64,000 nucleotides of DNA. It comes from Ceratodon purpureus (Eukaryota > Streptophyta > Bryopsida > Pseudoditrichales > Ditrichaceae). Under the pieces are notes generated by a model, which had not been told where the DNA came from, searched no databases, and saw only the letters and a program-made list of their open reading frames with translations. This document shows positions 24,978 to 64,000 of the stretch, piece by piece; the first letter of the stretch is position 1, and the number at the start of each line of letters is the position of its first letter. The position numbers and the translations under genes were made by a program. The stretch covers positions 17,755,542 through 17,819,541 of the forward strand of contig CM026424.1 in the NCBI GenBank assembly GCA_014871385.1. Direction: 5' to 3'.

Positions 24978-25054
24978 CTAAATTTCACAAAATAAAATGA
25001 AGATTAGATTCACGGTAAAATCCTTGCCCAAAAAAAATGATCAAATTTTCATAT

Positions 25055-25800
25055 ATGACTTCCTCGGCACTGCCATGGAGGGCAGTGCCTCCGCCTTCAC
25101 CTCAGCTGCTCCGCCCCTCGAACAACATTCGGGGCCGACAGTTGGGTGGGGGTGGGGAATAATCAAAAAAAAAAAAAGCATTGAAATCTCATTCATGGCT
25201 TCCTCGGCACTGCCATGGAGGGCAGTGCCTCCGCCTTCACCTTAGCTGCTCCGCCCCTCGAACAACGTTCGGGGCCGACAGTTGGGTGGGCGTGGGGAAT
25301 AATCAAAAAAAAAAAAGCATTGAAATCTCATTCATGGCTTCCTCGGCACTGCCATGGAGGGCAGTGCCTCCGCCTTTACCTCAGCTGCTCCGCCCCTCGA
25401 ACAACGTTCGGGGCCGACAGTTGGGTGGGGGTGGGGAATAATCAAAAAAAAAAAAGCATTGAAATCTCATTCGTGGCTTCCTCGGCACTGCCATGGAGGG
25501 CAGTGCCTCCGCCTTTACCTCAGCTGCTCTGCCCCTCGAACAACGTTCGGGGCCGACAGTTGAGTGGGGGTGGGGAATAATAATAAAAAAAAAAGCATTG
25601 AAATCTCATTCATGGCTTCCTCGGCACTGCCATGGAGGGTAGTGCCTCCGCCTTCACCTCAGCTGCTCTGCCCCTCGAACAACGTTCGGGGCCGATAGTT
25701 GAGTGGGGGTGGGGAATAATCAAAAAAAAAGAGCATTGAAATCTCATTCATGGCTTCCTCGGCACTGCCATGGAGGGCAGTGCCTCCGCCTTCACCTCAG
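25055..25800 (+). repeat. Tandem array of a ~139-bp unit, about 5.5 copies
   Basis: The unit is marked by CCTCGGCACTGCCATGGAGG, near 25062, 25202, 25341, 25481, 25620 and 25758. Each unit contains two hairpins (GGCACTGCC...GGGCAGTGCC and CGAAC-AAC-GTTCG) and ends in GGGGAATAATC plus an A run. Open frames starting MEGSASAF are produced by the repeat and are not genes. The array lies directly upstream of gene C. A second array of the same unit is at 48.1-48.9 kb. Confidence 0.9.
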
Positions 25801-25816
25801 CTCGGGCATTCTGGTG

Positions 25817-41700: not shown

Positions 41701-41857
41701 CGCGCCCTGCAAGGAAGAGGCACGTTACATGCAAGTCAATAGAAGGCCGCATTTCAGAGCACAACAAATACACCCAAATGCGAAGCATAACATCAAGAAC
41801 CCTAAAAAGTCACAAAAACCCTAAGCAACACTTACATTTATAAATCAGAGGGATCGG
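41701..41857. promoter_or_regulatory. Shared divergent 5' region of ParB-MTase D and MULE D
   Basis: Only about 150 bases separate the first ATG of ParB-MTase D (minus) from the first conserved MULE codons (plus). A splice acceptor precedes each start (CTTGCAG on the minus strand, AAATCAG on the plus strand), so leader exons may overlap. A common control region is likely by position alone. No clear TATA box was found. Confidence 0.45.
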
Positions 41858-48124: not shown

Positions 48125-48885
48125 CTGCACCTCAGCTGCTCTGCCCCTCGAACAACGTTCGGGGCCGACAGTTGGGTGGGGGTGGGGAATAATCAAAAAA
48201 AAAAAAGCATTGAAATCTCATTCATGGCTTCCTCGGCACTGCCATGGAGGGCAGTGCCTCCGCCTTCACCTCAGCTGCTCCGCCCCTCGAACAACGTTCG
48301 GGGCCGACAGTTGAGTGGGGGTGGGGAATAATCAAAAAAAAAAAAGCATTGAAATCTCATTCGTGGCTTCCTCGGCACTGCCATGGAGGGCAGTGCCTCC
48401 GCCTTCACTTCAGCTGCTGCGCCCCGCGAACAACATTTGGGGCCGACAGTTGAGTGGGGGTGGGGAATAATAAAAAAAAAAAAAGCATTGAAATCTCATT
48501 CATGGCTTCCTCGGCACTGCCATGGAGGGCAGTGCCTCGGCCTTCACCTCAGCTGCTCCGCTTCTCGAACAACATTCGGGGCCGACAGTCGGGTGGGGGT
48601 GGGGAATAATAAAAAAAAAAAAGCTTTAAAATCTAATTCGTGGCTTCCTCGGCACTGCCATGGAGGGCAGTGCCTCCGCCTTCACCTCAGCTGCTCCGCC
48701 CCTGGAACAACGTTCGGGGCCGACAGTTGAGTGGGGGTGGCGAATAATCAAAAAAAAAAGCATTGAAATCTCATTCATGGCTTCCTCGGCACTGCCATGG
48801 AGGGCAGTGCCTCCGCCTTCACCTCAGCTGCTCCGCCCCTCGAACAACGTTCGGGCCCGACAGTTGGGTGGGGGTGGGGAATAAT
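48125..48885 (+). repeat. Second tandem array of the ~139-bp unit
   Basis: About 5.5 units of the same sequence and orientation as 25055-25800, again directly beside an R-block, but here the R-block is inverted relative to the array. It ends about 130 bases before the large hAT element. Confidence 0.9.
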
Positions 48886-49013
48886 CAAAAAACAACAACC
48901 AAACATACAAACCCCGACCAACCCACAAATACCGAAAACCCACAAACTCTCTTTCACCCACAAAATCTCGAACCCAAATCTCATCAAACACCAAGTCGCT
49001 CAATCGCGATAGC

Positions 49014-49021
49014 CGCAGGAG
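49014..49021. repeat. Target-site duplication, left (CGCAGGAG)
   Basis: Identical to 63567-63574. Eight bases is the normal hAT duplication length. Confidence 0.93.
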
Positions 49022-49040
49022 CATGGTTGTCATAATGGAC
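49022..49040 (+). repeat. Left terminal inverted repeat of the large hAT
   Basis: CATGGTTGTCATAATGGAC is the perfect complement of 63548-63566. Weaker matching continues inward (GGACGG). Confidence 0.93.
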
Positions 49041-49130
49041 GGACGGGCCAAAAAATTGTCGTGTAGTCACGTGACGAACGTGACGGACGGTTATCGGACG
49101 GACGCTTATCGGACGGGCTCCCGACCGCGA
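49041..49130. repeat. Left subterminal GACGGAC repeats
   Basis: TGACGGACGGTTATCGGACGG and TATCGGACGG repeats follow the left end. Similar GACGGAC/ACGGACTAACGG strings lie just inside the right end (63487-63546). Such subterminal repeats are where hAT transposases usually bind. Confidence 0.6.
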
Positions 49131-49169
49131 GCAAAATTACTGTCCTCACAGTTTACTACTGTTTACCAT

Positions 49170-49470
49170 GGGTGGCGCCCGTCGTCGTGTCCGCGCGCGT
49201 CTTTGCGCCTGTTCGCGCCGGTCATTTGTGGCTGTTCGCGCCCGTCGTCAGTCTCGCGCGCGCGCGGTGATCGCGCCCGATTACCCTCGCCCGACCAGGG
49301 TCGCCCGCGCCCGTCGCGCGCTTGCTGTGATCGCGCCCGTCGTCAGTCTCGCGCGCGCGCGGTGATCGCGCCCGATTACCCTCGCCCAATCAGGGTCGCC
49401 CGCGCCCGTAACATGCTCGCGCCCGTAGCAGCCTGCGCGCGCCCAACCTGCTCGCGCCCACACTGTCGGC
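49170..49470. promoter_or_regulatory. CGCGCCCG island 1
   Basis: A stretch of repeated CGCGCCCG(T) in a very GC-rich segment upstream of the TATA box at 49479. It includes a partial ~100-base duplication (TCGCGCCCGATTACCCTCGCC occurs twice as shorter strings). Frames here are Arg/Ala/Pro-rich by-products. Confidence 0.7.
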
Positions 49471-49478
49471 CCCGTGAG

Positions 49479-49485
49479 TATAAAT
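49479..49485 (+). promoter_or_regulatory. TATA box of gene 1 in the hAT
   Basis: TATAAAT after CGTGAG. The following ~100 bases (ACTTTGTGCATTTTGCCTTC, AACAGCCC, GGTAGCTGATTGC) are nearly the same as those after the TATA box at 50488. Confidence 0.65.
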
Positions 49486-49606
49486 TGCCACCCTCCTCCA
49501 CTGATTTCGCACCCCCCCACTTTGTGCATTTTGCCTTCAACAGCCCAAGGGTAGCTGATTGCTTAGTGCTACGGTGGGTTTCTCAACATTCGGTGTACCG
49601 TCCAAC

Positions 49607-50011
49607 ATGAATTCCAACGCCTGCAATTGCCAACAAATCAAGTCCATTATGAGTTTAACGAATGGTGCTACTCCACCAGGCACTGCACAGCGAACGGACA
49701 CAGTTATTTGGTCAAAGCTGGAGCGACTCCGTCAACTGATTGAGTTCTTCGAGGATTGGATCTCTCGCCGTGACAAATTGGTGGCCTACGCAGAGAATGG
49801 ACGCCCTCTGCCTCCAACCACTGAAGAGCAGTTGGCAACCCAAGCGACTGTCGAAGAACTTGACTGTGAGATTGGCGATCTCATCAAAGAACTGAAGAAG
49901 GAGATGGCAATACTTTGTGTCCCCACTATTGTCTCTAGTGCTCAAACGAACCATTTCGAGACGCACTTGAAAGACCTAGAGGACCGGTACCTAGAGTGCA
50001 TGGCACTGTAA
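49607..50011 (+). CDS. hAT cargo gene 1: small helical protein, 134 residues
   Basis: A single frame from the ATG at 49607. After a Cys-containing N-terminus (MNSNACNCQQ) the protein is almost all helix, with heptad-like spacing (KLERLRQLIEFFEDWISRR; EELDCEIGDLIKELKKEM; HLKDLEDRYLECM). A coiled-coil adaptor or dimerisation role is possible. I do not know its family. A TATA box lies 128 bases upstream, and a possible leader donor (GGTGGGT) falls at about 49573, so the start could differ if that splice is used. It is the first gene inside the left end of the element. Confidence 0.6.
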   Translation: MNSNACNCQQIKSIMSLTNGATPPGTAQRTDTVIWSKLERLRQLIEFFEDWISRRDKLVAYAENGRPLPPTTEEQLATQATVEELDCEIGDLIKELKKEMAILCVPTIVSSAQTNHFETHLKDLEDRYLECMAL

Positions 50012-50119
50012 TCGACATTACAATGAAGTGATACATTTCCAAAATAAATAAAGTATTCTTTTTTAACTCTGAATTTGCAAGTCCTCTTTGGTTACTCTGA
50101 TTTTTAACAGTGTTCTAGG

Positions 50120-50485
50120 TTGTGGTGGCGCCCGTCCTGCTCGCGCCCGTCCATTCAGCGTTGGCGCCCGACGGTCGCGCCCGTACAGTTCGGATCGCGC
50201 CCGAAAATATCCGCGCGCCCGCGTCGACGTCCGCGCGCGCGCCCCTTCGGTACCCGGACGACGCCCGCTCGCGCCCGACGAAGACCGGGTCGGTACCCGC
50301 TCGCGCGCGGTAAAACCCGCGCGCGCCCGTCATATACCCGCCACTGAACCGCTCGCGCCCGTTGATATCCGCGCGGGCGCGGACGGATACACGGCCGAAA
50401 CCCCGCCGTCGGTGCCCGCGCGCGCCCGTCGGGTTTCCGCTCGCGCCCGTAGCAGGCTGTTCGCGCCCGTTCCCTGGCGCCCGTG
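50120..50485. promoter_or_regulatory. CGCGCCCG island 2
   Basis: Dense CGCGCCCG, GCGCCCGT and GCGCGCGC strings that end three bases before the TATA box at 50488. The composition is wholly unlike the flanking genes. Confidence 0.7.
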
Positions 50486-50487
50486 AC

Positions 50488-50494
50488 TATAAAA
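50488..50494 (+). promoter_or_regulatory. TATA box of the RING gene
   Basis: TATAAAA. Downstream lies a leader like that of gene 1, ending in a likely donor (CAGGTGGGT, about 50580). A good acceptor (TTATTCTCCAG, about 50626) suggests a short intron in the leader. Confidence 0.65.
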
Positions 50495-50769
50495 GGGCGA
50501 TTTCCCACCTCATTTTGCACTCCCCCCCCTTTGAGCACCTTGCCTTCAACAGCCCCCGGGTAGCTGATTGCGTGGTACTCAGGTGGGTCCCAGCACTCTG
50601 ACACGTGTCCTTGTTTTTATTCTCCAGAACTCTATGGTGTCTGTGTATTACATTTGAGAATTTTGTAAATGTTTATAATTTGTAAATGTGATTGAGGTTC
50701 TGGGGTAGTCGTAGGCTTTTAATTTTGCACCTTCGGAAGACTTCGAAGAACGATCTACCTCGAGCAGAC

Positions 50770-53322
50770 ATGGAACGGCAACAACCAGCACTCACGGCGG
50801 CAGAGCAGAGGAAAAAGCAAAAGGATGCGGGACGGCCCAGGCATGGAAACCTCCAACATAAGAGGGTCCACGTCTTATTGAATCCAGCAAAGCTGGCATT
50901 CAGAGGGTGGGAAGCTGCATCGCAACCGTGGACTCTAGCAACGTGTGAACAATTCATTGAATGGTGCCACATTGGGAAGTTATTCCCGTTGCACCGTCAT
51001 AAAAACAATCGTACTTCAAACAAGGCGAACATGAGATATTGCAAGAACCGTCAGTTCGGGAGGCGGTGTTTGGAGGTGTGGCAGGTCCTATACAACCAGG
51101 CGATGGACGAGAGGAATGAGGTTCCGCTCTTTATTTGTAGAATGGTATATGCCGAGGTAGTGCTTCATAGGCAGGTGGATTGGAGGACCATACGGTTGAC
51201 TCCTAGCGTCCACCGGCGTCCACATGAGATGGCGATACCTACAGGGGTCCTAAGATTCCCAGGTGTGGACTGGGCATACTTGGATGATCCTGAGGATCAT
51301 GCGCCTGTTGATTGGAGTGGATCGAGTTCGGATAATGATTCTGATGGTACGGTAGACCGTCCCCCTCAGTCACAGACAAGAGCAGCGACTAGTGCTAGAA
51401 TCACACGGTTAAAAAAGAAGGATCCTGAGCTAGCTGCCTGTTTGTCGACGAGGAATCGTGCACCGCCTGCAAATCCTACTGGACCGGGTATTCCTCATCA
51501 GGCTCCTCTAGCAATCGTCGGGGGCCCAAGCAATGTTGATGTTGCTCCTCCAATATTAGTTCCACAGATTGCGGGCCCGAGCAATGTTGATGTAGCTCCT
51601 CATGTACTGAATCCACAGATTGCGGGCCCGAGCAATGTAATGGAAGATGATGACACTGGGTTTGCAGATGAGTTGGAGGCTACAATAGCCGCCGCTGATG
51701 CCCAGGGCCTGCAAGTCGATGCATTGCAGAAGGAGCTGGAAGGAAAAAATGCAATAATTTCTGAGATGGAGAAGACTATCCAGAACTTGTACGAGGAAGC
51801 TGATAGGATGAATGAGATTATACGGAAGCAGAATGAAGAGATTTCGCAACTTAGATCTGCGAAGACTCCGACTTACATACCCGAAGCAAGCCAAGCTCCA
51901 ATCCCTGGTAGCCCTGGAATGAACGAGGAAGACGTTAATGCCATCATTGAATCGGCCACGCACGGTCTCCTGGAAGATACCCCGGTCCGAGTTCTCCGTA
52001 AGCCAATCATTCCATTCGCGTCATCAAGTCAAGTGATGCACCCCCCCCAGCGGCAAATCATGTTCGTAGATTCTCAAGAGACGGAGGACTCTTTGGGATT
52101 TCAACAGCCATCAGTACCCACTGTCTCCGAATTGCAAGCTACCAACGGGATGCTCAGAAAGTATCTGATCGAGATGAGCAGACAGTACTACCAATGGAAG
52201 ATTGCATGCATCATGAACGTCGACCGTTTCAGACAGATGCGCGCTGAGTTCGAGAGGATTGACCGCGACTACCTCCAGCTTAACTCCAAGAGAGATTTCG
52301 GACTTACCTCGTGGGCAGATCCAAATGAAATGTTCCCTGACAGCCTACCGATGATTGGTAAAGCAATAGATTGGACGCGGTTGGGGTGGGAGTACAAGAC
52401 CGCCATATCCAATGAGAAGATCGCTAAAAATGCAAAGCCAAGCTTGCTCTGGCCCAATCCAGCGAAGTATGTGTTGGATGGAACCCACTGTGCAATTTGT
52501 ACCAATCTATTTGGGCCAGAGGGGGGCTGGCAATTGGGATCCTGTCAATGCATGTATCATCCACAATGCTTGATCTCGTGGGCCTTGATACGTCGGAAGT
52601 GTGCAGTATGTAAGGCCCCCTTACACAAGCGTTTTTATGAGCAATTCGGCCTAGTGAATTGGATGCCACCGCGTTGGGAGCAAAATGAGGAAAATACTCT
52701 TGACTTTCCAGACAAGTGGGGTGAAGACTTGATTTGGAATTGGCTTATGGGAATGCACCTGTCCTATATTAAACAAATGAGCGATCAGTGGAGGTGGGAC
52801 CAGAAACCTGCGGAGATTGTACGGATCTGCCACGAACTCATCAAGGGCGGGACGGAGGAGGAACTCGAGGGAAGGAGGAATTTCTTCTACCAAGTGCTAC
52901 ATGGGTATTGGGATATTCAAACTTGTACATTCCAGTACGGCCCCCATCCTCTTGGATTTAAGTGGAATTCCAAAGGGGAGTTGGTTGCGGATCAGATCAA
53001 GGAGTTGCACGACATGACTGCAGAGGATTTCCGGATCGCTGAGGATGTACAAACCGCGGAATCTGAATGGGATATGTTGTTCAAGAATCAAGCCATGGAT
53101 TTCCTATGTGCTGAAGTGGCTCCGGAGGTCGTAACAGTGCTCCGTCGGATGCGCAACAACAACTTCATGGAAGCAATGCTTGGAGGAGATGGCATAGCGA
53201 AGAGAACCCGTTCTGCCAAGCGGAAACTCATCGCCAACGATGGGGCAGAAAGTAGTGCAGCAGGTACCTCTCGTGCTCGACACGATGAGGGTGGATCGAG
53301 TTCCTCTGCACCGGGCACGTGA
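50770..53322 (+). CDS. hAT cargo gene 2: RING-variant protein, 850 residues
   Basis: The first in-frame ATG is at 50770. Residues 1-170 are basic and aromatic (an unknown domain with HVLLNPAKLAFRGW and CRMVYAEVVLHRQVDW). There is then an acidic linker, a threefold IAGPSNV repeat, a coiled coil at about 300-365, and at about 574-614 a zinc-binding module CAIC, then CQCMYHPQC, then CAVC. Counting ligands gives C4HC3, as in RING-variant or PHD-like fingers; the spacing and the Trp after the sixth ligand favour RING. Such domains usually recruit a ubiquitin- or SUMO-conjugating enzyme. The C-terminal 230 residues are helical and end in a basic nuclear-signal-like stretch (KRTRSAKRK) and a Ser-rich tail. 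It is uninterrupted over 2.55 kb. A role in regulating transposase or host proteins is inference. Confidence 0.8.
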   Translation: MERQQPALTAAEQRKKQKDAGRPRHGNLQHKRVHVLLNPAKLAFRGWEAASQPWTLATCEQFIEWCHIGKLFPLHRHKNNRTSNKANMRYCKNRQFGRRCLEVWQVLYNQAMDERNEVPLFICRMVYAEVVLHRQVDWRTIRLTPSVHRRPHEMAIPTGVLRFPGVDWAYLDDPEDHAPVDWSGSSSDNDSDGTVDRPPQSQTRAATSARITRLKKKDPELAACLSTRNRAPPANPTGPGIPHQAPLAIVGGPSNVDVAPPILVPQIAGPSNVDVAPHVLNPQIAGPSNVMEDDDTGFADELEATIAAADAQGLQVDALQKELEGKNAIISEMEKTIQNLYEEADRMNEIIRKQNEEISQLRSAKTPTYIPEASQAPIPGSPGMNEEDVNAIIESATHGLLEDTPVRVLRKPIIPFASSSQVMHPPQRQIMFVDSQETEDSLGFQQPSVPTVSELQATNGMLRKYLIEMSRQYYQWKIACIMNVDRFRQMRAEFERIDRDYLQLNSKRDFGLTSWADPNEMFPDSLPMIGKAIDWTRLGWEYKTAISNEKIAKNAKPSLLWPNPAKYVLDGTHCAICTNLFGPEGGWQLGSCQCMYHPQCLISWALIRRKCAVCKAPLHKRFYEQFGLVNWMPPRWEQNEENTLDFPDKWGEDLIWNWLMGMHLSYIKQMSDQWRWDQKPAEIVRICHELIKGGTEEELEGRRNFFYQVLHGYWDIQTCTFQYGPHPLGFKWNSKGELVADQIKELHDMTAEDFRIAEDVQTAESEWDMLFKNQAMDFLCAEVAPEVVTVLRRMRNNNFMEAMLGGDGIAKRTRSAKRKLIANDGAESSAAGTSRARHDEGGSSSSAPGT

Positions 53323-53924
53323 CGTCGTGGAGATCCATGAGTGAAGACCACGTTTTGTAAAAAGATATCGGAATATAAATACATGTAGATGGCATAGGGG
53401 TATGGATAGGTTTGGGATTACATTCACATGTTTAATGTTTGTTAAACTCAAACAATGGATGATAATTTGCTTTTGTAAATCATTGTCGTGATTCTCAAGA
53501 CGCTTTTATGCTCCCTTCATAATACATTGGCCTCTCTTTTTTGGATTGCCAATCATGTTATTCATTCCGCCCGTTGTCTCATCTCCTTCCATCGTATGAT
53601 AAGTGTATAAATATCTCTGTTGCACACCAAAATGTTTAATATGGACAGTGGATTTAAGTCACGCTAAGGGTCCCTTCACACCTGGAGGTGTTACCATCGG
53701 CTACCGACTGTCTAACTCCGGGCCCTCCAAAAAACCCGTTTCCGATTCACAGGGTTCGAGTTAATTTACAGGGGGTTGGGTCTCGTGATAGGCCAGAGTC
53801 GGGGATCGGGGGCTGGGGTTCTTGCTGGATTTAAGTCACGCTAAGAGAACTTCAGTTATTGTAAGTGTATTTAACTTATGGACTGAATTTTATGTTACGT
53901 GGATTTGAACTTTGATCCCGCCCG
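53323..53924. other. 3' region of the RING gene
   Basis: AT-richer non-coding DNA. The string GGATTTAAGTCACGCTAAG occurs twice (about 53650 and 53828). Confidence 0.5.
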
Positions 53925-54540
53925 CATGGTCGCGCGCGTTTGCTCGCGCCCGTAGTGTGCGTACTCGCGCGCGCGCGAACCTGCCCCAGCGAGAATAAAA
54001 CCAGGATTACGCCCGCCCGTGCGCGCGCGCACGAACTGCTCGCGCGCGTGCGAAGTGCTCGCGCCCGTCGCGCCCACAGCGCGCGAACGGATACTGAAAT
54101 GTGGAACACCCGACGGTGTCTCCGTCGTTTGGCTCGCGCCCGATTCCGCATGCGCCCGCCCGATTTCGCGCGCGCCCGACAGTGCACGCGCGCGCGCACT
54201 GCAACCTGGGTGGGGGACTAATTTCTCTCCCCAAACTCTCTTTTCCATTTGCCCGCGCCCGTACGCGCGCGCGAGTCCTGATCGCGCCCGTCAAACCAAC
54301 CGCGCGCGCGCGCGGTCGCGTGATTCTGAATCTCTTCCTCCCTCACAATGTCCCCCGCATTTCGTTCGCGCCCAATTTCGCGCGCGCCCGATTGCGCGCG
54401 CCCGTCAATACTCGCGCGCGCGCACTGCAACCATGTCATGGAAGTAATTTCTCCCCATTCAGTCCCTCGTTCCATTTGCACGCGCCCGGACGCGCTCGCG
54501 CCCATCAATGCGGGCGCCCGTTTTGCACGCGCCCAAGCAC
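53925..54540. promoter_or_regulatory. CGCGCCCG island 3, without a gene behind it
   Basis: Repeated CGCGCCCG/CGCGCGCGC strings in blocks separated by CACTGCAACC and TAATTTCTC. No TATA box and gene follow, so this may be a remnant of a promoter whose gene is lost, or another kind of site. Confidence 0.6.
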
Positions 54541-54649
54541 TCCAACAACATCACTCAAATAAATTTTATGATTCCCCCACTCTCCCATCGTATCCCCTTG
54601 TTTTTATTAAATAATCCCACACTCTCTAAATTTTTAATAGTTTTTTTTT

Positions 54650-55690
54650 GCCCCCTCTTTGAACAGTACGTTTTTATTTAACTCGTAATCTCATTTTGTC
54701 TGTTCATTTTTATAATATACTAAAGGTAGTAAATCTTCATGTCGACCCAGAGTCACATGAAGATCCTCTAAGCGCCTGAGTTCAGCTGATTTATATCCAC
54801 TATTTTTTTTTTTCCCACTGTTTTTTTTTTCCCCCTTCGTTGAACACTACGCTTTTATTTAATTCCTTCTTTCATTTCGTTTGTTCAATTTTATAATTCC
54901 ACCTCTCCCCCTTCTTCCCGCCTTATTTTTATTCAATACTTCTACGCTCTGTAATTTGTTTTATATTTTTTTTTCCCCTTCGTTGAACACTACGCTTTCA
55001 TTTAATACCTTCTCTCATTTTGTTTGTTTATTTTTATAATTCCACCTCTAGTCTATCCTCCCGCCTTATATTTATTCAATACTCCTACGCTCTTTAATTC
55101 CTTTTTTTTTTTCCCCCTTCGTTGAACACTACGCTTTTATTTAATTCCTTCTTTCATTTCGTTTGTTCAATTTTATAATTCCACCTCTCCCCCTTCTTCC
55201 CGCCTTATTTTAATTCAATACTTCTACGCTCTGTAATTTGTTTTATATTTTTTTTTCCCCTTCGTTGAACACTACGCTTTCATTTAATACCTTCTCTCAT
55301 TTTGTTTGTTCAATTTTATAATTCCACCTCTCCCCCATCTTCCCGCCTTATTTTTATTCAATACTTCTACACTCTGTAATTTGTTTTATATTTTTATTTC
55401 CCTTTCGTTGAACACTACGCTTTCATTTAATACCTTCTCTCATTTTGTTTGTTCATTTTTATAATTCCACCTCTAGTCTATCCTCCCGCCTTATATTTAT
55501 TCAATACTCCTACGCTCTTTAAATCCCTTTTTTTTTTTTTTCCCTCTTCGTTGAACACTATCATTCTATTTAATTCCTTCTCTCATTTCGTTTGTTCATT
55601 TTTATAATTCCACATCTCCCCCATCCTCCCGCCTTATTTTTATTCAATACTCCTATGCTATTTAATTTGTTTTTTTATTTTTTTCTTCAT
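54650..55690. repeat. ~143-bp minisatellite inside the hAT
   Basis: About seven units, marked by GTTGAACACTACGCTT near 54838, 54981, 55121, 55264 and 55408, with diverged copies at about 54658 and 55551. The units are T-rich (TTCATTTAATACCTTCTCTC, CCCGCCTTATTTTTATTCAA). No coding content. Confidence 0.85.
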
Positions 55691-55854
55691 TTTATAAATT
55701 TGAATGCCTATTCGTTTACTTTTTTTTTTTTTTTTTTTTCTTTTGGGTACTCCAATCTCCCATACTAATGTATGGTATTTCAGTGTAGTCCAGTCTCTCC
55801 CTTAAGCTTTATTTTTTTTCTTTTTTTGAACTTACGACTTTTAAACTTCATTGA

Positions 55855-56100
55855 GCGCGCCCTGTTGGATCGCGCGCGTCCGAACGCGCCCGCAGGCGCC
55901 GGCGCGGTGGTGTCCGCAGTGGACCCACTGAACCTGCCCACGCGCGCGCGCGCACACTCGCGACCGCGCCCGCAAGTACGCGCGCGCGCCTGCTTGTTCG
56001 ACGCGCGCACGCGTCGTCCTCGACCTGCGCTCGCCCTGCTCGCGCCCACCCGTTCGCGCGCGCCTGCTCGCGCCCCACGCCGCCTGCGCGCGCGCTCGGG
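55855..56100. promoter_or_regulatory. CGCGCCCG island 4
   Basis: A short GC-rich island with the same motif, again without an obvious gene directly behind it. Confidence 0.6.
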
Positions 56101-56429
56101 GTTTCAACTGGATTAGTGCAGTAACTAGTAAACTTTATCCCATATTTTAAGTTAACACTCCCTGAGGTTAGCTTAAAACGACTTACCTTCCACTAGGAGG
56201 GCAGAAACATGAGGGGCGAAATGACAACCTGCTCTAGTTCTTAGACATGTGTGAATGGAGTGGTTTGTCCTTTCGCACTGTCATGTTTCTCATTTTTTTT
56301 ACTAAAATAGGGTTCCTTTTAATGTAGATGTGCACGTGTATGTAGTTCACACACTTTAATTTATTTAAATTTTATTCATTTTTCCCTCTCGTTGTTACTT
56401 CTTCTCATAGAATTGAGGTGGTCAAATCG

Positions 56430-56760
56430 ATCCCGGCCGTTAGATCGCGCCCGCACCCGACCGCCCGTGCGCGCCCGCGCCTGCATTCGCCCGCCGCTCT
56501 CCGCCCGTGCGCGCCCGCGCCCGCATTCGCCCGCTGCTCTCCGCCCGCGCCCGCCCGCGCCCGCCCGCTTCGCGATCCAGCGCTCGCGCGTGCATGCGCC
56601 CGCCCCCGCCCGTCTTCCACCGCGCGCGCTATCCGCCACGCGGCCTTCAATCGCGCGCACCCACCTGCGCCCGCCCGTTCGCCTCGGAGCGCGCCCGATC
56701 TTCTGGTGCGCGCGCGCCCGTTCGGTCGCGCCCGTCCGGACAGTACTCGCCCGGTCGAGG
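56430..56760. promoter_or_regulatory. CGCGCCCG island 5
   Basis: Repeats of CGCCCGCGCCC and CGCGCCCG ending just before the TATA box at 56768. It includes an internal duplication (CCGCCGCTCTCCGCCCGTGC then CCGCTGCTCTCCGCCCGCGC). Confidence 0.7.
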
Positions 56761-56767
56761 GCGGCAG

Positions 56768-56775
56768 TATATAAA
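56768..56775 (+). promoter_or_regulatory. TATA box of the transposase gene
   Basis: TATATAAA. The leader contains GGGCTCCTTGCTTGAAACTG and TTTGGGTGGGGGGA, paralleled behind the kinase TATA box. Confidence 0.7.
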
Positions 56776-57018
56776 CTGCCCCCTTGATTTGACATCCACC
56801 TTACCTCCTTGCGTGCTTCATGTCCTGGGTCTCCTTGAGGGCTCCTTGCTTGAAACTGTTAGCTTGGGGAGACACTTGGTTTGGGTGGGGGGAATGTAAA
56901 AATTCTTCTCTCCATAAATCAATGTGTCAAGCACTTTTCAGACACACTAAGTTATTCAGATAATAATCTTTTGGTACTACTGGTCCTATTAGTCCCAATA
57001 CTTCCTTAATCGTTCACT

Positions 57019-60000
57019 ATGGATCCGGATGAAGCGGTTGAACCGGTTGAAGTGGTTGCTCCGGCTAGAGCCATTCCAAGACTCGGTACGAGAGAGTGGG
57101 CACCATGGTTTTCGATCAAGTTCCAGGAAGGGTCACTGTCACATAAGGTAGCCCAATGTGTGTATTGCAGGACCAAGTTTTCGTACGTGAGGCATAGGTG
57201 CTTTCAGCATTATGGTTGGGACCAGTCCAATCTCTCGAGGGTTTGCCAAAAGGCACCTACCGTAGTGAAGAGGAAGTTTCAGTTTTGCGCTGGAAAGATT
57301 CCCGGCCCTTTGACACAGGAGGAGGTGGATGGTATCAGGCCAACGTTCCCCGCGTCAGTTCAACGTGGAACATCCAGTGCTTCCACACACGGCACTCTGT
57401 ACGGTGGATCCGAACCCTCGTATAATGATTCCGAAGAGGACCGAAATGTCTCCAGTGTTGCACCTAGTAGGGCCGGTTCGAATACCACTAGGAGCTTGCG
57501 GCAACAGGACATGAGTGAAGTACTCCAGATCGCCAAGCGGAAGGAGCTGGACATGTTGTGGTCATCCTTCTTTTACGAAGCCAACGTCGCATTCAACGTG
57601 GCCAAGCACCCAGCATTTATTAAGGCGGTGAGCACAACCGCGGCTGCCGGATTTAACTACAGTCCTCCTTCCTATGACGCGATGCGAACAACGCACATCA
57701 AGGAAAAAAAGAAGTTAATCAAGGCAAAGATTGATGAACGTACGAAAACCTCGACCGAGTTATACGGGGGTACCATATGCTCCGATGGCTGGGATAATGT
57801 GAATCGCCGACCGTTGATGAATGTCATGCTAGTATGTCCGGCAGGCGATGTATTTCTTGGGTCTGTTAATACGACTGGCGAGAAGAAGTCAATGGGATAT
57901 ATTGCCGGGGAGATGAAGAAATATATTCGAGAAATTGGCCCTCAAAATGTTGTCCAGATTTGCACGGACAATGCAGCCAACATGCTTGGCGCCATGGATA
58001 ATATCCTGGAGGAGTTTCCTCACATGTACAAGCAGGGCTGTTGTGCCCATATTCTAGATCTTCTTATGGAGGACTGGGGCAAGGAAGTCTTTGTGAAGGA
58101 TTTGGTCGCCAAGGCTAAACACGTGTGTCATTACATTCGGAGACATCATGTTCCCATGGCCCTTTTCCGCAAATTTGAACCAAAGTTGTCCTTGGTGGTT
58201 CCCGCTGAAACCAGATTCGCTTGTAACTATCTCATGATAGAGCGCCTTATGGAGGTTAAATTTGCTTTGGAGCAAGTGGTCATGGCACAGGAGTGGTACG
58301 AGTATGTCGACGGTTTATTCAACCAAACCGAGGGGGTGCGTAATCATGCACGCGCAAGCGTAGTGCGTCAAACAATTCGTGACGATGGGTTCTGGCATCA
58401 GTGTGACAACTTCACGCACCTAGTGAAACCAGCCCTAGTAGCTCTCAGGACCTTCGATGGAAGCCAGCCGGCAATGGGCAAGGCATGGATTACAATGAGC
58501 AACCTAAAGGATCACGTGTACAATCTCCGAGGATCCCCTTGCTTTTTCCCACCTGTCATGGCAACAAGGATGGAGCTGCGGTTCGACCGTAGATGGGACA
58601 TGATGCATACCGATCTTCATTATGCCGCGGCGCTCTTGAACCCTTGGGTTAGAACGCATAAGGGCTTACAAGTCATAGGAGAAGCGAAGGCGGCTCTCAA
58701 TCGGGTGTTTCGTCAGGTGGGTGGCCAAATGGGAATTCCATTTGGCGATCTTATGAAAGAGATGATCGAGTTCGACGAGGGACGTGGCCCTTACAGCCCC
58801 GAAGTGACCATCGATATCAGAGGTTTGAATCTGGAACCCCATCAATGGTGGCAGAGGATTGGAGGGGGACCATTGGCAGTCATTGCGAAGCGCATTTTAT
58901 CTCAGGTCTGCTCCGCCTCATCGTGTGAACGGAATTGGAGCATGTACTCGTTTGTCCACAACAAGGTACGCAACCGCCTGGGGTTAGAGAAGTCTGAGGC
59001 CTTGGTGTACATTTATACGAATAGCAGACTCCTCCGCGAACGCCCAAAGCCCAACCCCCTCAGATGGTACGAGAACAATGCATGGTCAGAGGAGTCGGAT
59101 CCGGAGAGAGATCCAAGCGAAGAGGAAGGAGATGACGACGATCATTACATACCAGTTGACCATGCAGGCAGTGGGGATGATGATGTCTGGGGACATGATA
59201 ACGTCGACGTTAACACGAATGGGCAAAACGACGGTAATGGCAACGGACGCGGTGACCCTAACCGCAACAATCCGCGTGACCGCAACAACCACGACGATAA
59301 CGGTGATGAGTACGACTTCAACAATGAACCAGAATATAACCAGGGAAACCCGGACATGAACATCTATGGAGACGAATTACCCACGCTCCCGGTATTTGAT
59401 GAAGCGGCTAATGCAGAAGGAAGAGGCGCTCGTGACGAAAGAGATGCTATTCCAATCCAAATCAATCCTGAGAACAATGACGGGGTTGCAGATGATTCAT
59501 CCAGCGAGGACCATCTAGGCAACGATATCCATGCTGGCGATGATGATGAGGACAGTGACGAAGGGGGTGATGGAAGTCATGGACGGGCTGTAGATGGACC
59601 TCATTGGACCGGCCTCGTTAGTGGGGAGGGCAACTGGGGAACCGTTCCGGCACAAGGCGACTCAAGCTTGTTTCAAGAGATTCCTCCTGCTCACGAGAGA
59701 AGGACTGTGCACGCAATCCCCGCACAGACTGTGGCTCCATCGCAACCCACTGGTACGGGGGGTATCGAACCAGAGACAATCGTGGATGGAAGCCTGGCTC
59801 GGAGGCCCACAAGTTCAATGGGCGCAAAAATAGCTCGACTCCTTAGATCATCAGCAGCGGCGAGGCCTCCACTCAATCGAGCTAGTGGTAGTCGGCGTGG
59901 TGCCTCCACCGCCAAGCTAGTCCCCGTGGCGCCAGCTATAGACGAAGCCGTACAGAATGTGGCCCAACGTGGTGCGAAGAAGTCCACAGCCAAGGTTGTT

Positions 60001-60465
60001 AGGAAACCACCATCACAAGAACCCCGCGGAGGAACACGAAAGTCAAGCAAAAAAACTGGACCTGATCCCCTTCCATTCTATACAGGGTACACTGAAGGGG
60101 GGCCTTCTTCTGGAACTGGGGTTGTTCGCACACGCATAAACTTTGAGGATGGCATCACAGCCATCGGTAATTCCGGAAAGGAGAGGCCTATGAAGCGCCT
60201 AGTAAGTGCCCGAGATGGCAATACGGGTGAAGTTTCCGTGCAAGTGCGCAATCTTACATCGGAGGTGGAAGGAGAGGTACAAGCTCCAGTGGTCGGAGCT
60301 CCTGAGGATGAAGGTGACAACGAGCACTCAGAGGAGGAAGACCCCGATTGCGATGAGGCGCCAGATGACGAAGATGTGATAATCCGGCACGAATTGGGGC
60401 CCACTGTAGCTCGGAAAAGACAATCTTCACGCAAGAAGAAGCCCCGCAAAGCAAGGAGAGTCTAG
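57019..60465 (+). CDS. hAT transposase with BED finger and long acidic tail, 1148 residues
   Basis: A single uninterrupted frame from the ATG at 57019. A BED-type finger lies at residues 47-64 (CVYC, then HRCFQH). The RNase-H-like core has CSDGWDN (Asp about 256), ICTDNAANM (Asp about 317) and CCAHILDLL, with DUF659-like features. The catalytic Glu and the dimerisation region are at 636-670 (SSCERNWSMYSFVHNKVRNR). All three acidic catalytic residues are therefore present. After about residue 680 comes a tail of some 470 residues rich in Asp, Asn and Glu, ending in a basic stretch (KKKPRKARR). Most hAT transposases stop soon after the dimerisation region, so the tail is unusual. The enzyme would act on the 19-base ends of this element and perhaps on those of the 4.24-kb element at 11 kb. 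Confidence 0.93.
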   Translation: MDPDEAVEPVEVVAPARAIPRLGTREWAPWFSIKFQEGSLSHKVAQCVYCRTKFSYVRHRCFQHYGWDQSNLSRVCQKAPTVVKRKFQFCAGKIPGPLTQEEVDGIRPTFPASVQRGTSSASTHGTLYGGSEPSYNDSEEDRNVSSVAPSRAGSNTTRSLRQQDMSEVLQIAKRKELDMLWSSFFYEANVAFNVAKHPAFIKAVSTTAAAGFNYSPPSYDAMRTTHIKEKKKLIKAKIDERTKTSTELYGGTICSDGWDNVNRRPLMNVMLVCPAGDVFLGSVNTTGEKKSMGYIAGEMKKYIREIGPQNVVQICTDNAANMLGAMDNILEEFPHMYKQGCCAHILDLLMEDWGKEVFVKDLVAKAKHVCHYIRRHHVPMALFRKFEPKLSLVVPAETRFACNYLMIERLMEVKFALEQVVMAQEWYEYVDGLFNQTEGVRNHARASVVRQTIRDDGFWHQCDNFTHLVKPALVALRTFDGSQPAMGKAWITMSNLKDHVYNLRGSPCFFPPVMATRMELRFDRRWDMMHTDLHYAAALLNPWVRTHKGLQVIGEAKAALNRVFRQVGGQMGIPFGDLMKEMIEFDEGRGPYSPEVTIDIRGLNLEPHQWWQRIGGGPLAVIAKRILSQVCSASSCERNWSMYSFVHNKVRNRLGLEKSEALVYIYTNSRLLRERPKPNPLRWYENNAWSEESDPERDPSEEEGDDDDHYIPVDHAGSGDDDVWGHDNVDVNTNGQNDGNGNGRGDPNRNNPRDRNNHDDNGDEYDFNNEPEYNQGNPDMNIYGDELPTLPVFDEAANAEGRGARDERDAIPIQINPENNDGVADDSSSEDHLGNDIHAGDDDEDSDEGGDGSHGRAVDGPHWTGLVSGEGNWGTVPAQGDSSLFQEIPPAHERRTVHAIPAQTVAPSQPTGTGGIEPETIVDGSLARRPTSSMGAKIARLLRSSAAARPPLNRASGSRRGASTAKLVPVAPAIDEAVQNVAQRGAKKSTAKVVRKPPSQEPRGGTRKSSKKTGPDPLPFYTGYTEGGPSSGTGVVRTRINFEDGITAIGNSGKERPMKRLVSARDGNTGEVSVQVRNLTSEVEGEVQAPVVGAPEDEGDNEHSEEEDPDCDEAPDDEDVIIRHELGPTVARKRQSSRKKKPRKARRV

Positions 60466-60804
60466 ACTGTGGTCACCTTTTTAGCGCATGAAGTAGCAGT
60501 AAATCTAAACATAAAATCTACCGGCTAAAAACCAAAAAAAATACTACGTTATTCTTAATGTTTTTTTTTTTTTTTTTGGTAGCACCTTCTTATTACGTAG
60601 GCTTATACTGTTACTTAGAGTCAACCTAGTTCATTATCTCACACTCGAAGGAATTGTATGGTTGTGCTCTGTATTAATTTTTGTGCGCTAAATGCGGTTA
60701 ATATATCTCCATTGAGTAATTTCCCAGTGAATTTTTTTGGTATTCTGTTCAATATACGAGTATACCGTAACCGAACCTGTACAGTGTATGTAACGCTGCC
60801 TATC

Positions 60805-61170
60805 CGGGCGCGTGCACTGGGACGGGCGCGTACAGGAAGGCGCCCGCAGGGGCACGGTGTCGGGCGCGTGCGCGGGGACGGGCGCGTGCACGGTCACGGG
60901 CGCGTACAGCGTGCTCGCGCGTACAGATAACCGGCGCGCGCAGGGGTACGGGCGCGAGCACGCGGGCACGGGCGCCTGCGGCGTCGGGCGCGCCCGATGT
61001 GGGCTGACGGGCGCGCACGTGGGCACGGGCGCGCAAACGCGGGCACGGGCGCGGGCAGTCCCCCGCGCGAACGCGGTGGACGGGCGCGTGCAGACGGGCG
61101 CATGCGGACGGGCGCGTGTGGAGGCCCTGTGCGCGCGCGTGTACGCGCTTACGGGCGCGAACAGCCGAGG
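60805..61170. promoter_or_regulatory. CGGGCGCG island 6 (opposite orientation)
   Basis: The same motif as the other islands, but on the other strand (ACGGGCGCG repeated about every 15-20 bases). It lies directly before the kinase TATA box. It shows that the motif works, or spreads, in either orientation. Confidence 0.7.
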
Positions 61171-61174
61171 GGAG

Positions 61175-61183
61175 CATAAAAGG
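61175..61183 (+). promoter_or_regulatory. TATA box of the kinase gene
   Basis: CATAAAAGG. The leader has TGCTCTGCTTGGAACTGCAG and GATTGGGTGGGGGGGA, similar to the transposase leader. Confidence 0.6.
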
Positions 61184-61358
61184 CGCCCCTTAACCCTTAT
61201 TTTCTACTTTTCAAAGTCTCCTCTTCCAGGTGGCTCCTTGTCCTAGCCCGTGACTCCACGTGCTCTGCTTGGAACTGCAGGAAGTGGGAGCAACCAGATT
61301 GGGTGGGGGGGATCTTTTGGTTTTTTTTTTATTGTGTGTCCAGTTCATTATTCCAACT

Positions 61359-62927
61359 ATGTCGGTCTCTCGCGGATCCGGGAAACGCCCTGCCTACGTA
61401 GATCTTGATGCTCCTGTAGAGGATGTGATGGCAACCTCCACAGCACCGACCGTTACAGGCTCAAACCCGTCATCAAGCTCATCGGGAAAGAAGAACCGGA
61501 AGTCGGCGAGTGAGAGGGACCCGGACTACCCACCTCCTCGGTACCAGGAATTCGTTAGAGAGCTAGCATTGGAGTGGTACGGATGTCGGAAACGGGAGAT
61601 GATTACCCGTACGTACGTTGAGAAGGGGGAGACCGGAATTAAGGACTTAAAGACCCATTTGGAAGAGTATTTGTGGAAGAAGCTGGACCTTTCCGAGAGA
61701 TATAATGATTGTATTCATTACTTTCATTTCCCTAAGTGGATGGAGCAACAAATAACAACAAACACTACGAACATTGTGCATGTCTTTGAGTGTGTCAACA
61801 AGAAGCCAAAGGAGGGCTACTCGCGGGCGCAGAAGGAAGAGATAGAGAAGCTCAAATATGTCCAGGATTCGTGCGCGAGATTCTCGAATAATAGGACGAG
61901 GGCGAGGCCATGGCTTGAAGCTGGACTGAAAAGCGCAATGGAGAAGTACTTGTGGGGAGCAGTGGTTGGAGTTCCGAGAGGGGTCAAGTTGGTTCCGCTG
62001 TCAGGCACAAAGGAAGGCGGTTATGGTAAAGTCCGAAAATTACGTATTGTTGGCATGCAAACCATGCCTGAGACTTGTGTCTTTGCGGGGAAGACGTCCA
62101 AGGCTCCTGACGAGACCCAGAAGCGGCACGAGACATCAATAGAAGCCATGGTTTGCAGAATTGACCATCCCGGCGTTATTAAGTTTTTTGCGGTCAATGA
62201 CTGGACGATGGAAGCCTACACGCTTTGGTGGAATGGGGATTGCCTGCAGAATTTTCTGCACAAGTTCAATTCAAATATCGGTGAGGGTACTCAGAACCGT
62301 AACATCCACAAGCAAACCGATATGCCCATGGAAACACGTGACCGTGTTAAGGCCTTCCGCACCCATAGGGCCAAGCTAGCTTGGGCACTCATCTGTATTA
62401 TGGACCGGGTGCATAAGGGGTATTTGCAGCATAATGACATCTCCCCGGGAAATGTCTTGCTTCACTTCCCAGAGGATAAAGTGAGCGAGGTTTACATTGG
62501 AGTATGCGACTGGGGCCTTGCAAGTCGAGTGTGTGAGACAACTCCTTCAAGGTACGGTTACCCAAGTGATGAGGCGCGTACGGAAGCCTTCAAGGAACGT
62601 GGTAGTTTTGTGGCTCCGGAGTTGTGGTACACTTATGGTAAGCGAAATTCGGAGACCTCTTATGAAACTGTAAGGAGGAGACATCTATATACGCAGGCTG
62701 CCGATGCGTACTCGGTTGGAGTGGTAGCAAATAAGATTTGGGATAACGAGGACGACTTCGACCTTTTCAAGGATACAGCGGGGAAGGCTAGATTTGCGGT
62801 GGCGTTGAAGGAGCTCACAAATCCCGATCCCAAGAGCCGCTCCACCTTGCGTTTGGTCCACGCTACTCTAACACCCCCTCCCTACAATTTCCAAATCCCA
62901 GAGTGTTGTTATCGCAAACATATTTAG
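61359..62927 (+). CDS. hAT cargo gene 4: protein kinase, 522 residues
   Basis: Start chosen at the ATG at 61359, 176 bases behind the TATA box. A Ser-rich basic N-terminus is followed by a helical domain (residues about 60-200), then a kinase fold: glycine loop GGYGKV (about 218), VAIK-like FAGKTSK, a helix-C region with IEAMVCRIDHPGVIKFF, catalytic loop LQHNDISPGNVLL (about 357; Asp and Asn kept, Arg replaced by Asn), CDWGLA in place of DFG (about 382), and VAPELW. The invariant Lys, Asp, Asn and the DxG Asp are all present, so activity is likely. The HND and DWG variants set it apart from common plant kinases. Frame intact. Within the element it could phosphorylate the transposase or host factors; that is inference. 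Confidence 0.85.
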   Translation: MSVSRGSGKRPAYVDLDAPVEDVMATSTAPTVTGSNPSSSSSGKKNRKSASERDPDYPPPRYQEFVRELALEWYGCRKREMITRTYVEKGETGIKDLKTHLEEYLWKKLDLSERYNDCIHYFHFPKWMEQQITTNTTNIVHVFECVNKKPKEGYSRAQKEEIEKLKYVQDSCARFSNNRTRARPWLEAGLKSAMEKYLWGAVVGVPRGVKLVPLSGTKEGGYGKVRKLRIVGMQTMPETCVFAGKTSKAPDETQKRHETSIEAMVCRIDHPGVIKFFAVNDWTMEAYTLWWNGDCLQNFLHKFNSNIGEGTQNRNIHKQTDMPMETRDRVKAFRTHRAKLAWALICIMDRVHKGYLQHNDISPGNVLLHFPEDKVSEVYIGVCDWGLASRVCETTPSRYGYPSDEARTEAFKERGSFVAPELWYTYGKRNSETSYETVRRRHLYTQAADAYSVGVVANKIWDNEDDFDLFKDTAGKARFAVALKELTNPDPKSRSTLRLVHATLTPPPYNFQIPECCYRKHI

Positions 62928-63119
62928 AAGTAGGCAAGTAGTGACAACAATGTGATATTCTCAGTTCTCCATAAGAGGGGACATTTTTTGTAAGTGGTTT
63001 ACTGCCACAATTTTGCAAAACTTTTCAATAAACATTGCACTTCCCAATTGCCCTCTTCTGAAATACATGCCCTCTCTTGTCATTTATGATTTTGCCCGAT
63101 GTCGCTCTTTCCCTACTAA

Positions 63120-63428
63120 CCTGCAGCGCTCGCGCCCGACCGCCGGCGCCCGATGCAGCGCACTCGCCCAAATGCACGCGCCCGATCCAGGCTCGCGCCC
63201 ACATGACCGCGCCCGATAAGTGTGCTCGCGATCGTCAACTGGATCGCGCCCGCAGCGACGCTCGCGCCCGTTCGCAGGCGCACGCGCGCGACCGGAACGA
63301 CGCACGCGCCCTCGCTCTCGCGCACTCCAGCGCGCGCCCGTGACATCGCGTTCGCGCGGACGCTCGCGCCCGTCGTCCTGCTCGCGCCCACCCGCTCGCG
63401 CCCGTAATCGCGCTCGCGCCCGCACTAA
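63120..63428. promoter_or_regulatory. CGCGCCCG island 7, right subterminal
   Basis: Repeated CGCGCCCG(T) strings between the kinase gene and the right end, mirroring island 1 near the left end. No gene follows, so this copy may serve as a subterminal binding region rather than a promoter. Confidence 0.65.
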
Positions 63429-63547
63429 TTCAGCGCTAGGTAAATTCGTTTTACCCTTACAGTGAGTCAACTGGTCAACGCCCTTATGTGACGGACACGG
63501 GGGTCTGTCTTGTCACCATGACGGACTAACGGACTAACGGACGGTCG

Positions 63548-63566
63548 GTCCATTATGACAACCATG
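63548..63566 (-). repeat. Right terminal inverted repeat of the large hAT
   Basis: GTCCATTATGACAACCATG is the perfect complement of the left end at 49022-49040. Confidence 0.93.
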
Positions 63567-63574
63567 CGCAGGAG
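63567..63574. repeat. Target-site duplication, right (CGCAGGAG)
   Basis: Identical to 49014-49021. Confidence 0.93.
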
Positions 63575-63580
63575 CCTTAC

Positions 63581-64000
63581 CTCGAGGGCGACGTTCTCGT
63601 CACCTTGCCTGTCGCCGACCTCATCTTCCCTGTCGTCGTCCTCGTGCTCTCCTTCGTGGTCGTCGTCCTCGTGCTCTCCATCTTCGTCGTCGACCTCCTG
63701 CTCTCGTTCCTGATCGTCGTCGTCCTGCTCTCCGTCGTGGTTGTGGTCCTCCTGCTCTCCTTCGAGGTCGCGGCCCTCATGCTCGTGGTCTTCCACCCGC
63801 GGCACCTCCTCTCCGACTGCCTCAATCGCCATGCCTGCTTCATGGTCCATCTCCGCAGCTCCAGTCGCACCCCCTGCTTCCCTCTCCGACCCACGCCCTC
63901 CGCGGCCCGCACCTCCACGCCGTCTCCTCCCAACCTGCTTCTCCGAACCCTGCTTCACAGACCTACGACCTGCTCCTCGCGCAACGCCACGCGCACTACG
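63581..64000 (-). CDS. Partial host gene for a highly acidic protein, interrupted by the hAT
   Basis: The minus-strand frame is open from the window end down to a clean donor (CTCGAG then GTAAGG, cut after 63581). It encodes a basic Gly/Arg-rich stretch and then about 85 residues of imperfect acidic repeats (EHEDDDHEGEHEDDD, then DQEREQEVDDEDG), ending GDENVALE. The large hAT sits 6 bases inside the following intron, at 63574 and below, so that intron has grown by 14.5 kb. The next exon would lie left of 49014 and I could not identify it. Acidic-repeat proteins are often nuclear, but no family is assigned. Confidence 0.5.

Follow-up and report, generated by a model that had tools for sequence, protein, structure and literature searches.

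The stretch analysed here, referred to as the window, comprises 64,000 nucleotides of the Ceratodon purpureus contig CM026424.1 (positions 17,755,542 to 17,819,541 of the forward strand), and all coordinates are counted from its first letter. Between 49022 and 63566 the window contains a hAT-type element of 14,545 bp with four genes, which all lie on the forward (+) strand and encode, in this order, a small acidic protein (gene 1), a RING-like protein, the transposase and a protein kinase. According to our best explanation this region is one complete multi-gene hAT-type transposon. We regard that explanation as fairly probable, a grading that applies to it as a whole, including the multi-gene unit, its motif arrays and the roles proposed below.

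The element is bounded by terminal inverted repeats of 19 bp, CATGGTTGTCATAATGGAC, at 49022–49040 (left end, + strand) and 63548–63566 (right end, − strand), which are perfect with 0 mismatches between the two copies. Allowing up to three mismatches, the sequence CATGGTTGTCATAATGGAC was matched twice in the 64 kb, namely at both element ends, against 0.01 expected matches; a wider version of the inverted repeat covers 29 nt (90%). The termini read CA at the start and TG at the finish. Directly outside lie the two copies of a perfect 8-bp target-site duplication, CGCAGGAG (49014–49021 and 63567–63574), and no further copy occurs in the window. As a bare 8-mer CGCAGGAG is unremarkable, 1.4 occurrences being expected in the window, and what is unusual is its position against both ends. 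Subterminal CGGAC repeats were found at the left end at 49039–49114 (+ strand; five within the first 100 bp, TTATCGGACGG occurring twice) as well as near the right end, where five are located in the last 250 bp on the same strand as at the left. As indicated by the 8-bp duplication, the element was inserted by an 8-bp-staggered cut, and its target was repeat-rich, apparently eukaryotic DNA. When the flanks are joined without the element, a minus-strand Asp/Glu-rich frame stays open over the junction (+65 codons), which is compatible with an insertion and falls short of proving it. At the insertion site the Asp/Glu-rich reading frame occupies 63575–63850 (− strand) and possibly belongs to a gene or repeat that was broken by the insertion.

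The transposase gene (gene 3; 57019–60465, + strand) consists of an uninterrupted frame of 1148 amino acids (aa). DUF659 was recognized at residues 217–369 (E 9e-34) and the dimerisation region Dimer_Tnp_hAT at residues 605–668 (E 2.4e-5), both above their cut-offs, and a Cys/His finger can be seen by eye near the N-terminus (CVYC at residue 47). The dimerisation region is followed by a tail of 468 residues, and the part between residues 680 and 940 is acidic (net −45). Sites of the type [ST]xx[DE] number 11 in this tail versus eight in the first 680 residues. Together with the 8-bp duplication and the short inverted ends, these transposase regions place the element in the hAT superfamily.

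Gene 4 (61359–62927, + strand; 522 aa) contains a glycine loop, an AxK lysine, HND, DWG and APE, the respective stretches beginning at residues 216, 241, 357, 382 and 417; these correspond to the catalytic motifs of kinases (glycine loop, AxK lysine, HxD, DxG, APE). The comparison with the Pkinase profile yielded an E value of 1.5e-7 and 31.6 bits, just short of the cut-off of 31.7 bits, and a PDB search at E ≤ 0.01 returned one weak match, 6vvg_A (entry name arginine kinase, E 0.0093). Judged by its motifs, the predicted product has what an active protein kinase of the eukaryotic type requires. A lead towards the fungal FunK1 kinases was abandoned, no family of this kind having been matched at E up to 1.

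The RING-like protein (gene 2; 50770–53322, + strand; 850 aa) carries a finger at residues 574–614, in which eight zinc ligands with RING spacing are present in C4HC3 order. This order is that of the RING-variant fingers, and the proline which is usual between the last two cysteines is missing here. The finger was best aligned to RNF24 (E 9.2e-5) and reached 8e-4 and 20.1 bits with zf-RING_2, which is under the curated cut-off of 27.3 bits. Residues 1–140 are basic with an isoelectric point of 10.2, and residues from about 300 to 365 probably form a coiled coil. By its ligand pattern the protein is a plausible candidate for a ubiquitin ligase, its profile score lying below the cut-off.

Gene 1 (49607–50011, + strand) would encode an acidic protein of 134 aa. 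For control of the reading-frame lengths, 100 dinucleotide shuffles were analyzed, the longest shuffled open reading frame (ORF) measuring 259 aa. The RING, transposase and kinase frames (850, 1148 and 522 codons) are far above this maximum, and their codon usage is similar (r 0.82–0.86); the length of gene 1 is within chance, with 1.74 ORFs of at least 134 aa expected per shuffle. Read in its own frame, gene 1 has a codon score of +0.164 bits per codon. Other frames of the same region gave −0.051 and −0.008 (forward) and +0.034 (reverse strand), and six other small ORFs were negative throughout (−0.008 to −0.218). A single-sequence structure model is mostly helical with a mean predicted local distance difference test score (pLDDT) of 70 and values below 50 for the first 24 residues. 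The family search gave no family match, and the fold search gave syntaxin-like helical-bundle matches, none of them at E ≤ 0.001 (best 0.056), and is uninformative. According to the model the product is probably a helical protein. The sequence-only reading of this DNA, from which our analysis started, had described perfect 19-base ends, a perfect 8-base duplication and an intact transposase accompanied on one strand by genes for a kinase, a RING-type finger protein and a small helical protein. All of these descriptions were confirmed, the helical character of the small protein being predicted.

Beyond that reading, arrays of a CpG-rich motif, approximately GCNCGCGCCCGT, were found upstream of each of the four genes. 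The core of this motif, GCGCCCG, occurs at 75 sites in the element (57 forward and 18 reverse) and at 0 sites in the other 49.5 kb of the window. All but one of these sites (74 of 75) are outside the four ORFs, which make up 54.8% of the element; the sole core site within an ORF is located at 61824 in the kinase gene. Inspection of the flanking positions leads to the longer consensus near GCNCGCGCCCGT, with position −4 occupied by G at 68 of the 75 sites. The 12-mer GCNCGCGCCCGT contains three CpG steps and, with at most one mismatch, has 57 matches, all of them inside the element (0.34 expected). Since the core exceeded 500 shuffles of the respective block in six of the seven GC-rich blocks tested, base composition alone is insufficient to account for it. 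Furthermore, the core does not occur in the GC-rich DNA beyond the element, at 11.0–11.6, 14.7–15.3 and 63.6–63.9 kb. With these two results, chance GC-richness was ruled out as the source of the motif.

Most arrays are one-sided. Array 1 (49175–49459, + strand) lies upstream of gene 1 and contains eight core sites, 8/0 in forward/reverse orientation, and a 95-bp tandem duplication. Array 2 (50128–50483, + strand; 13 forward, one reverse) precedes the RING gene and array 4 (56446–56735, + strand; 11 forward, 0 reverse) the transposase gene, and array 5 (60805–61162, − strand; 15 reverse, two forward) is found upstream of the kinase gene. Array 3 (53946–54535, + strand; 11 forward, one reverse) has no gene directly downstream, and array 6 (63132–63422, + strand; 10 forward, 0 reverse) is situated beside the right end with no downstream gene within the element. 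Arrays lie about 150 bp inside both element ends, and tandem duplications traverse several of them. A further GC-rich block at 55850–56110 (+ strand) has only two core motifs and no significant enrichment (reached by 0.136 of the shuffles). The spacer between array 3 and this block is occupied by a T-rich minisatellite (54562–55685, + strand) of about 143-bp units, approximately six of which form the core at 54823–55684. The minisatellite is strongly pyrimidine-rich and without a gene, the GC skew being −0.35 and the AT skew −0.36 at 54–56 kb.

The four promoter arrays are each closely followed by a TATA-like box. For gene 1 it is found at 49479–49484 after array 1, for the RING gene at 50488–50493 after array 2, for the transposase gene at 56768–56775 after array 4 and for the kinase gene, in the form CATAAAAGG, at 61175–61183 after array 5 (all + strand). 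The leader of the RING gene, up to 50588, is homologous to that of gene 1; both are duplicates with 72% over 166 columns (E 5e-17), and their alignment score is 89, the highest value among 1000 shuffles being 29. The idea that all four genes share one homologous leader was considered and rejected, only the gene 1/RING pair being strongly supported. Likewise, introns in the 5' untranslated regions, as suggested by GGTGGGT-like donors and CAG acceptors before the RING, transposase and kinase genes, were discarded: they would be only about 41–57 nt long, and an acceptor of this kind is missing from the examined stretch of gene 1.

The interior of the element was searched for nested insertions in two ways. 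The first search, for 12-bp inverted termini with at most one mismatch, the outer six positions exact, a span of at least 250 bp and flanking repeats of 4–10 bp, gave 12 rows, of which three represent the outer pair in three registers and nine combine 4-bp flanks with GC-rich termini. The second, for 14-bp termini with at most two mismatches and 2–3 bp flanks and run without a shuffle control, gave 75 rows, mostly with GC-rich termini. Seventeen of them are below 70% GC; two of these are again the outer pair, and the remaining 15 have one or two mismatches and appear chance-like or consist of poly-T. Below 70% GC, the element has no exact 14-bp inverted repeat other than its outer ends. Consequently, there is no convincing nested unit of terminal inverted repeats plus target-site duplication inside the element. 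Convincing internal scars are absent, the frames are uninterrupted and the genes have the array-plus-TATA layout in common, which makes one unit more likely than chance nesting, in agreement with the sequence-only reading. The shared promoter arrays suggest that the cargo is part of this unit, and the four genes would be co-mobile.

A second copy or a fragment of the element was not present in the window (best blastn E 0.05; best non-self E 0.18 in tblastn with the four proteins), and Rfam gave nothing at gathering scores there. Single-protein queries, which catch close relatives only and say little about eukaryotes, revealed no confirmed relative of the transposase or the kinase in viral contigs or prokaryote genome contigs and none of the RING protein in viral contigs. 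The 19-bp end had 0 exact matches in viral contigs.

ToxhAT of fungal wheat pathogens contains a hAT-like transposase and several other genes between inverted ends 14.3 kb apart; its ends of 74 bp are about 92% identical, a target-site duplication is not identifiable, and it is likely to include a nested transposon with its own ends (PMC6737239). The element described here resembles ToxhAT in combining a hAT transposase with extra genes between inverted ends over a similar span (14,545 bp), but differs in its perfect 19-bp ends, its perfect 8-bp duplication and the lack of a convincing nested unit. Puccinia hAT7 carries a gene for a TET/JBP dioxygenase, for which an aid against methylation-based silencing has been proposed, and produces 7-bp duplications (PMC12730594). 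The two elements have a hAT transposase and accessory gene content in common, whereas the moss element shows an 8-bp duplication and a cargo of kinase, RING and helical proteins with no TET/JBP family match. In the main text of the hAT7 article both mentions of a kinase refer to the alpha-kinase gene of IS3EU elements, and the word "ring" is absent (PMC12730594). The view of hAT elements as normally small, single-gene transposons therefore holds as a tendency and fails as a rule, given the extra genes of ToxhAT and hAT7 (PMC6737239, PMC12730594).

Hermes provides a comparison for the ends. The BED finger of Hermes binds subterminal repeats at the Hermes left end (PMC10368747), and our element shares with Hermes-type hATs the transposase regions, the 8-bp target site and inverted ends with subterminal repeats. 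Unlike Hermes, it contains three more genes, arrays far from the ends and the 468-residue transposase tail. The layout of the arrays closely fits that of VANDAL21 (also called Hi), a Mutator-like transposon with a VANC anti-silencing protein (PMC5735166, PMC10398659). VANC21 binds short motifs of one orientation which are dense in the non-coding parts of VANDAL21, where it causes methylation to be lost; the motifs are rare in other transposons and have spread by tandem repeats (PMC5735166). In analogy, the element is a multi-gene DNA transposon with non-coding, dense, same-orientation and tandemly expanding arrays of a motif that is rare elsewhere, and within this window its arrays are, like VANC-type arrays, element-specific, non-coding and mostly one-sided. 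The two transposons, however, belong to different superfamilies and their motifs are unrelated (YAGTATTAY in VANDAL21). Among the matches listed from the open-licence literature, none was seen to describe a hAT encoding both a kinase and a RING protein, and the main text of a review of giant transposons does not contain "hAT" as a separate word (PMC6431247). Multi-gene hATs are already known from ToxhAT and hAT7, and it is the combination of this cargo with element-specific arrays that was not met in the literature so covered.

With regard to the mode of action, we propose that the transposase would cut and join with an 8-bp stagger. The arrays precede each gene and lie inside the two ends, positions that would suit a regulator of the entire element. 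It appears reasonably likely that the four genes are mobilised together and co-expressed because one DNA-binding protein reads the arrays. That this reader is a protein of the element itself, either the transposase through its finger or the RING protein through its basic N-terminus, has in our estimate slightly less than an even chance. In a speculative extension of the sequence-only reading, the kinase and the RING protein could tune host chromatin proteins or the transposase; in the latter, the acidic tail might serve as substrate. As role of the arrays we would favour self-regulation or anti-silencing, since the motifs are arranged similarly to the arrays that VANC targets in the VANDAL transposons of Arabidopsis. 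More specifically, the arrays might couple the transposase level to copy number or keep the CpG-rich control DNA unsilenced, with the kinase and the RING protein adjusting the transposase or host chromatin proteins; at this level of detail the proposal is tentative and rather doubtful. Its furthest form is a hAT with an independently evolved VANDAL/VANC-like system, in which an accessory protein, the RING protein with its basic N-terminus being the best candidate, would bind the element-only arrays and unsilence the four promoters and both ends, and in which the kinase and the RING finger would act on the transposase or on host silencing factors. We think this form unlikely. The cargo had been suggested to act through phosphorylation and ubiquitin- or SUMO-type modification; judged from the predicted proteins, a role in phosphorylation and ubiquitin transfer is plausible, and nothing in the analysis points to SUMO.

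Several observations weigh against this explanation. Strong leader homology is confined to one of the six gene pairs; for the transposase/kinase and gene 1/transposase pairs the alignment score is reached by 0.013 and 0.04 of the shuffles, respectively, and the remaining three pairs are not significant versus shuffles. The kinase box reads CATAAAAGG rather than TATAWA, and TATAWA also occurs on the + strand without a promoter array at 53374, 53606, 55693 and 62686. The array before the kinase gene runs in the opposite orientation, and array 3 is gene-less. Enrichment also extends to other GC-rich words, CGCGCGC being found 115 times inside and 0 times outside the element, and the arrays are for this reason a mixture and not one clean repeat; the overlapping word CGCGCCC has one occurrence outside. 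Binding of the motif by an element protein is putative, and a host factor may bind it instead. The structure model of the RING protein is poor (mean pLDDT 40) and unusable for the explanation, and the alignment of the transposase with Hermes, which is co-linear, is non-significant (E 0.063; two stretches singly E 11 and 39). Finally, only one copy of the element is known, so that joint movement of the four genes and selection on the cargo are putative.

That single copy also speaks for a capture of passengers, in which a single-gene hAT took up a host kinase, a RING gene and a small ORF by chance, in the manner of Pack-type elements, the cargo having no role. Plant transposons do take up host genes (PMC13317346). 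Searches of two libraries linked the cargo to no known accessory family of transposons, and the codon usage of the cargo is like that of other window genes: an ORF at 36.2–37.9 kb correlates at 0.80–0.86 with the three large genes, by which the cargo is not set apart. Captured sequences, however, are most commonly pseudogenised or lost (PMC13317346), whereas here three large frames are uninterrupted and not fragments, each cargo gene has a transposase-like array-plus-TATA layout with the element-specific motif, and convincing internal insertion scars are missing; we therefore consider a mere capture unlikely. A composite, i.e. an outer hAT consisting of transposase and ends around older, end-less transposons that brought the RING or kinase genes, would fit the inversion of the kinase array relative to the other main arrays and the repeats and gene-less array at 53.3–56.4 kb. 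ToxhAT is such a composite (PMC6737239), and older elements without ends would evade both nested-unit searches. Against it, no other pair of termini is flanked by more than 4 bp of duplication, the candidates with 2–3 bp flanks and less than 70% GC have imperfect termini of only 14 bp, and the same motif recurs in the spacers around all four genes; we hold a composite to be quite improbable.

In a further alternative the arrays would be transposase-binding subterminal repeats or host-activator sites that were spread by tandem duplication and have no anti-silencing function, the kinase and the ubiquitin ligase tuning transposase stability, in line with the sequence-only reading. The position of the arrays about 150 bp inside both ends and the binding of left-end subterminal repeats by the Hermes BED finger (PMC10368747) agree with such sites. 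So do the kinase motifs and the long transposase tail with its acidic section and its [ST]xx[DE] sites (11 versus eight in the first 680 residues). The arrays at both ends, however, have the same orientation and do not face each other, and arrays also fill spacers far from the ends. Moreover, the RING finger stays under the curated cut-off and does not have the proline that is usual between its last two cysteines. On balance this alternative seems somewhat unlikely, and we retain the explanation as a multi-gene hAT unit with arrays for self-regulation or anti-silencing.

The remainder of the window contains further repeats. The same tandem repeat of roughly 139 bp is present at 25030–25802 and 48125–48901, the two arrays being about 92–96% alike and 23 kb apart, and the latter stops about 120 bp short of the left end of the element. 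Inverted arms at 11519–12331 and 13919–14739, about 820 bp long and 96% identical, surround an AT-rich core (12–14 kb, 28% GC), and the region 11519–14739 looks like a second mobile element of the foldback type. Related repeated reading frames are located at 5850–9574 (+ strand), 21101–24371 (− strand) and 36239–41724 (− strand) and have PLCRMI/PLCRLI and NHR..AW in common, as seen by eye. The frame at 36239–37867 gave a weak match to an N6/N4 DNA methylase below the cut-off (E 0.029) and no confirmed relative in viral contigs. The stretches 1655–2064 and 42678–43087 are related coding sequences on opposite strands (68% over 411 bp). The protein encoded at 41965–43278 is transposase-like by eye; Pfam gave no match at E ≤ 0.1, and no relative was confirmed among viral contigs.

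In the usual picture, a cut-and-paste element consists of a transposase between two ends. The motif described here opens a direct test by DNA binding and by a search of the host genome for more copies. A complete hAT with signalling-type genes behind like arrays would demonstrate the ability of this superfamily to build up a regulated programme of several genes, and if the arrays serve anti-silencing, this would represent a further invention, in another superfamily, of the strategy of the Arabidopsis VANDAL transposons.

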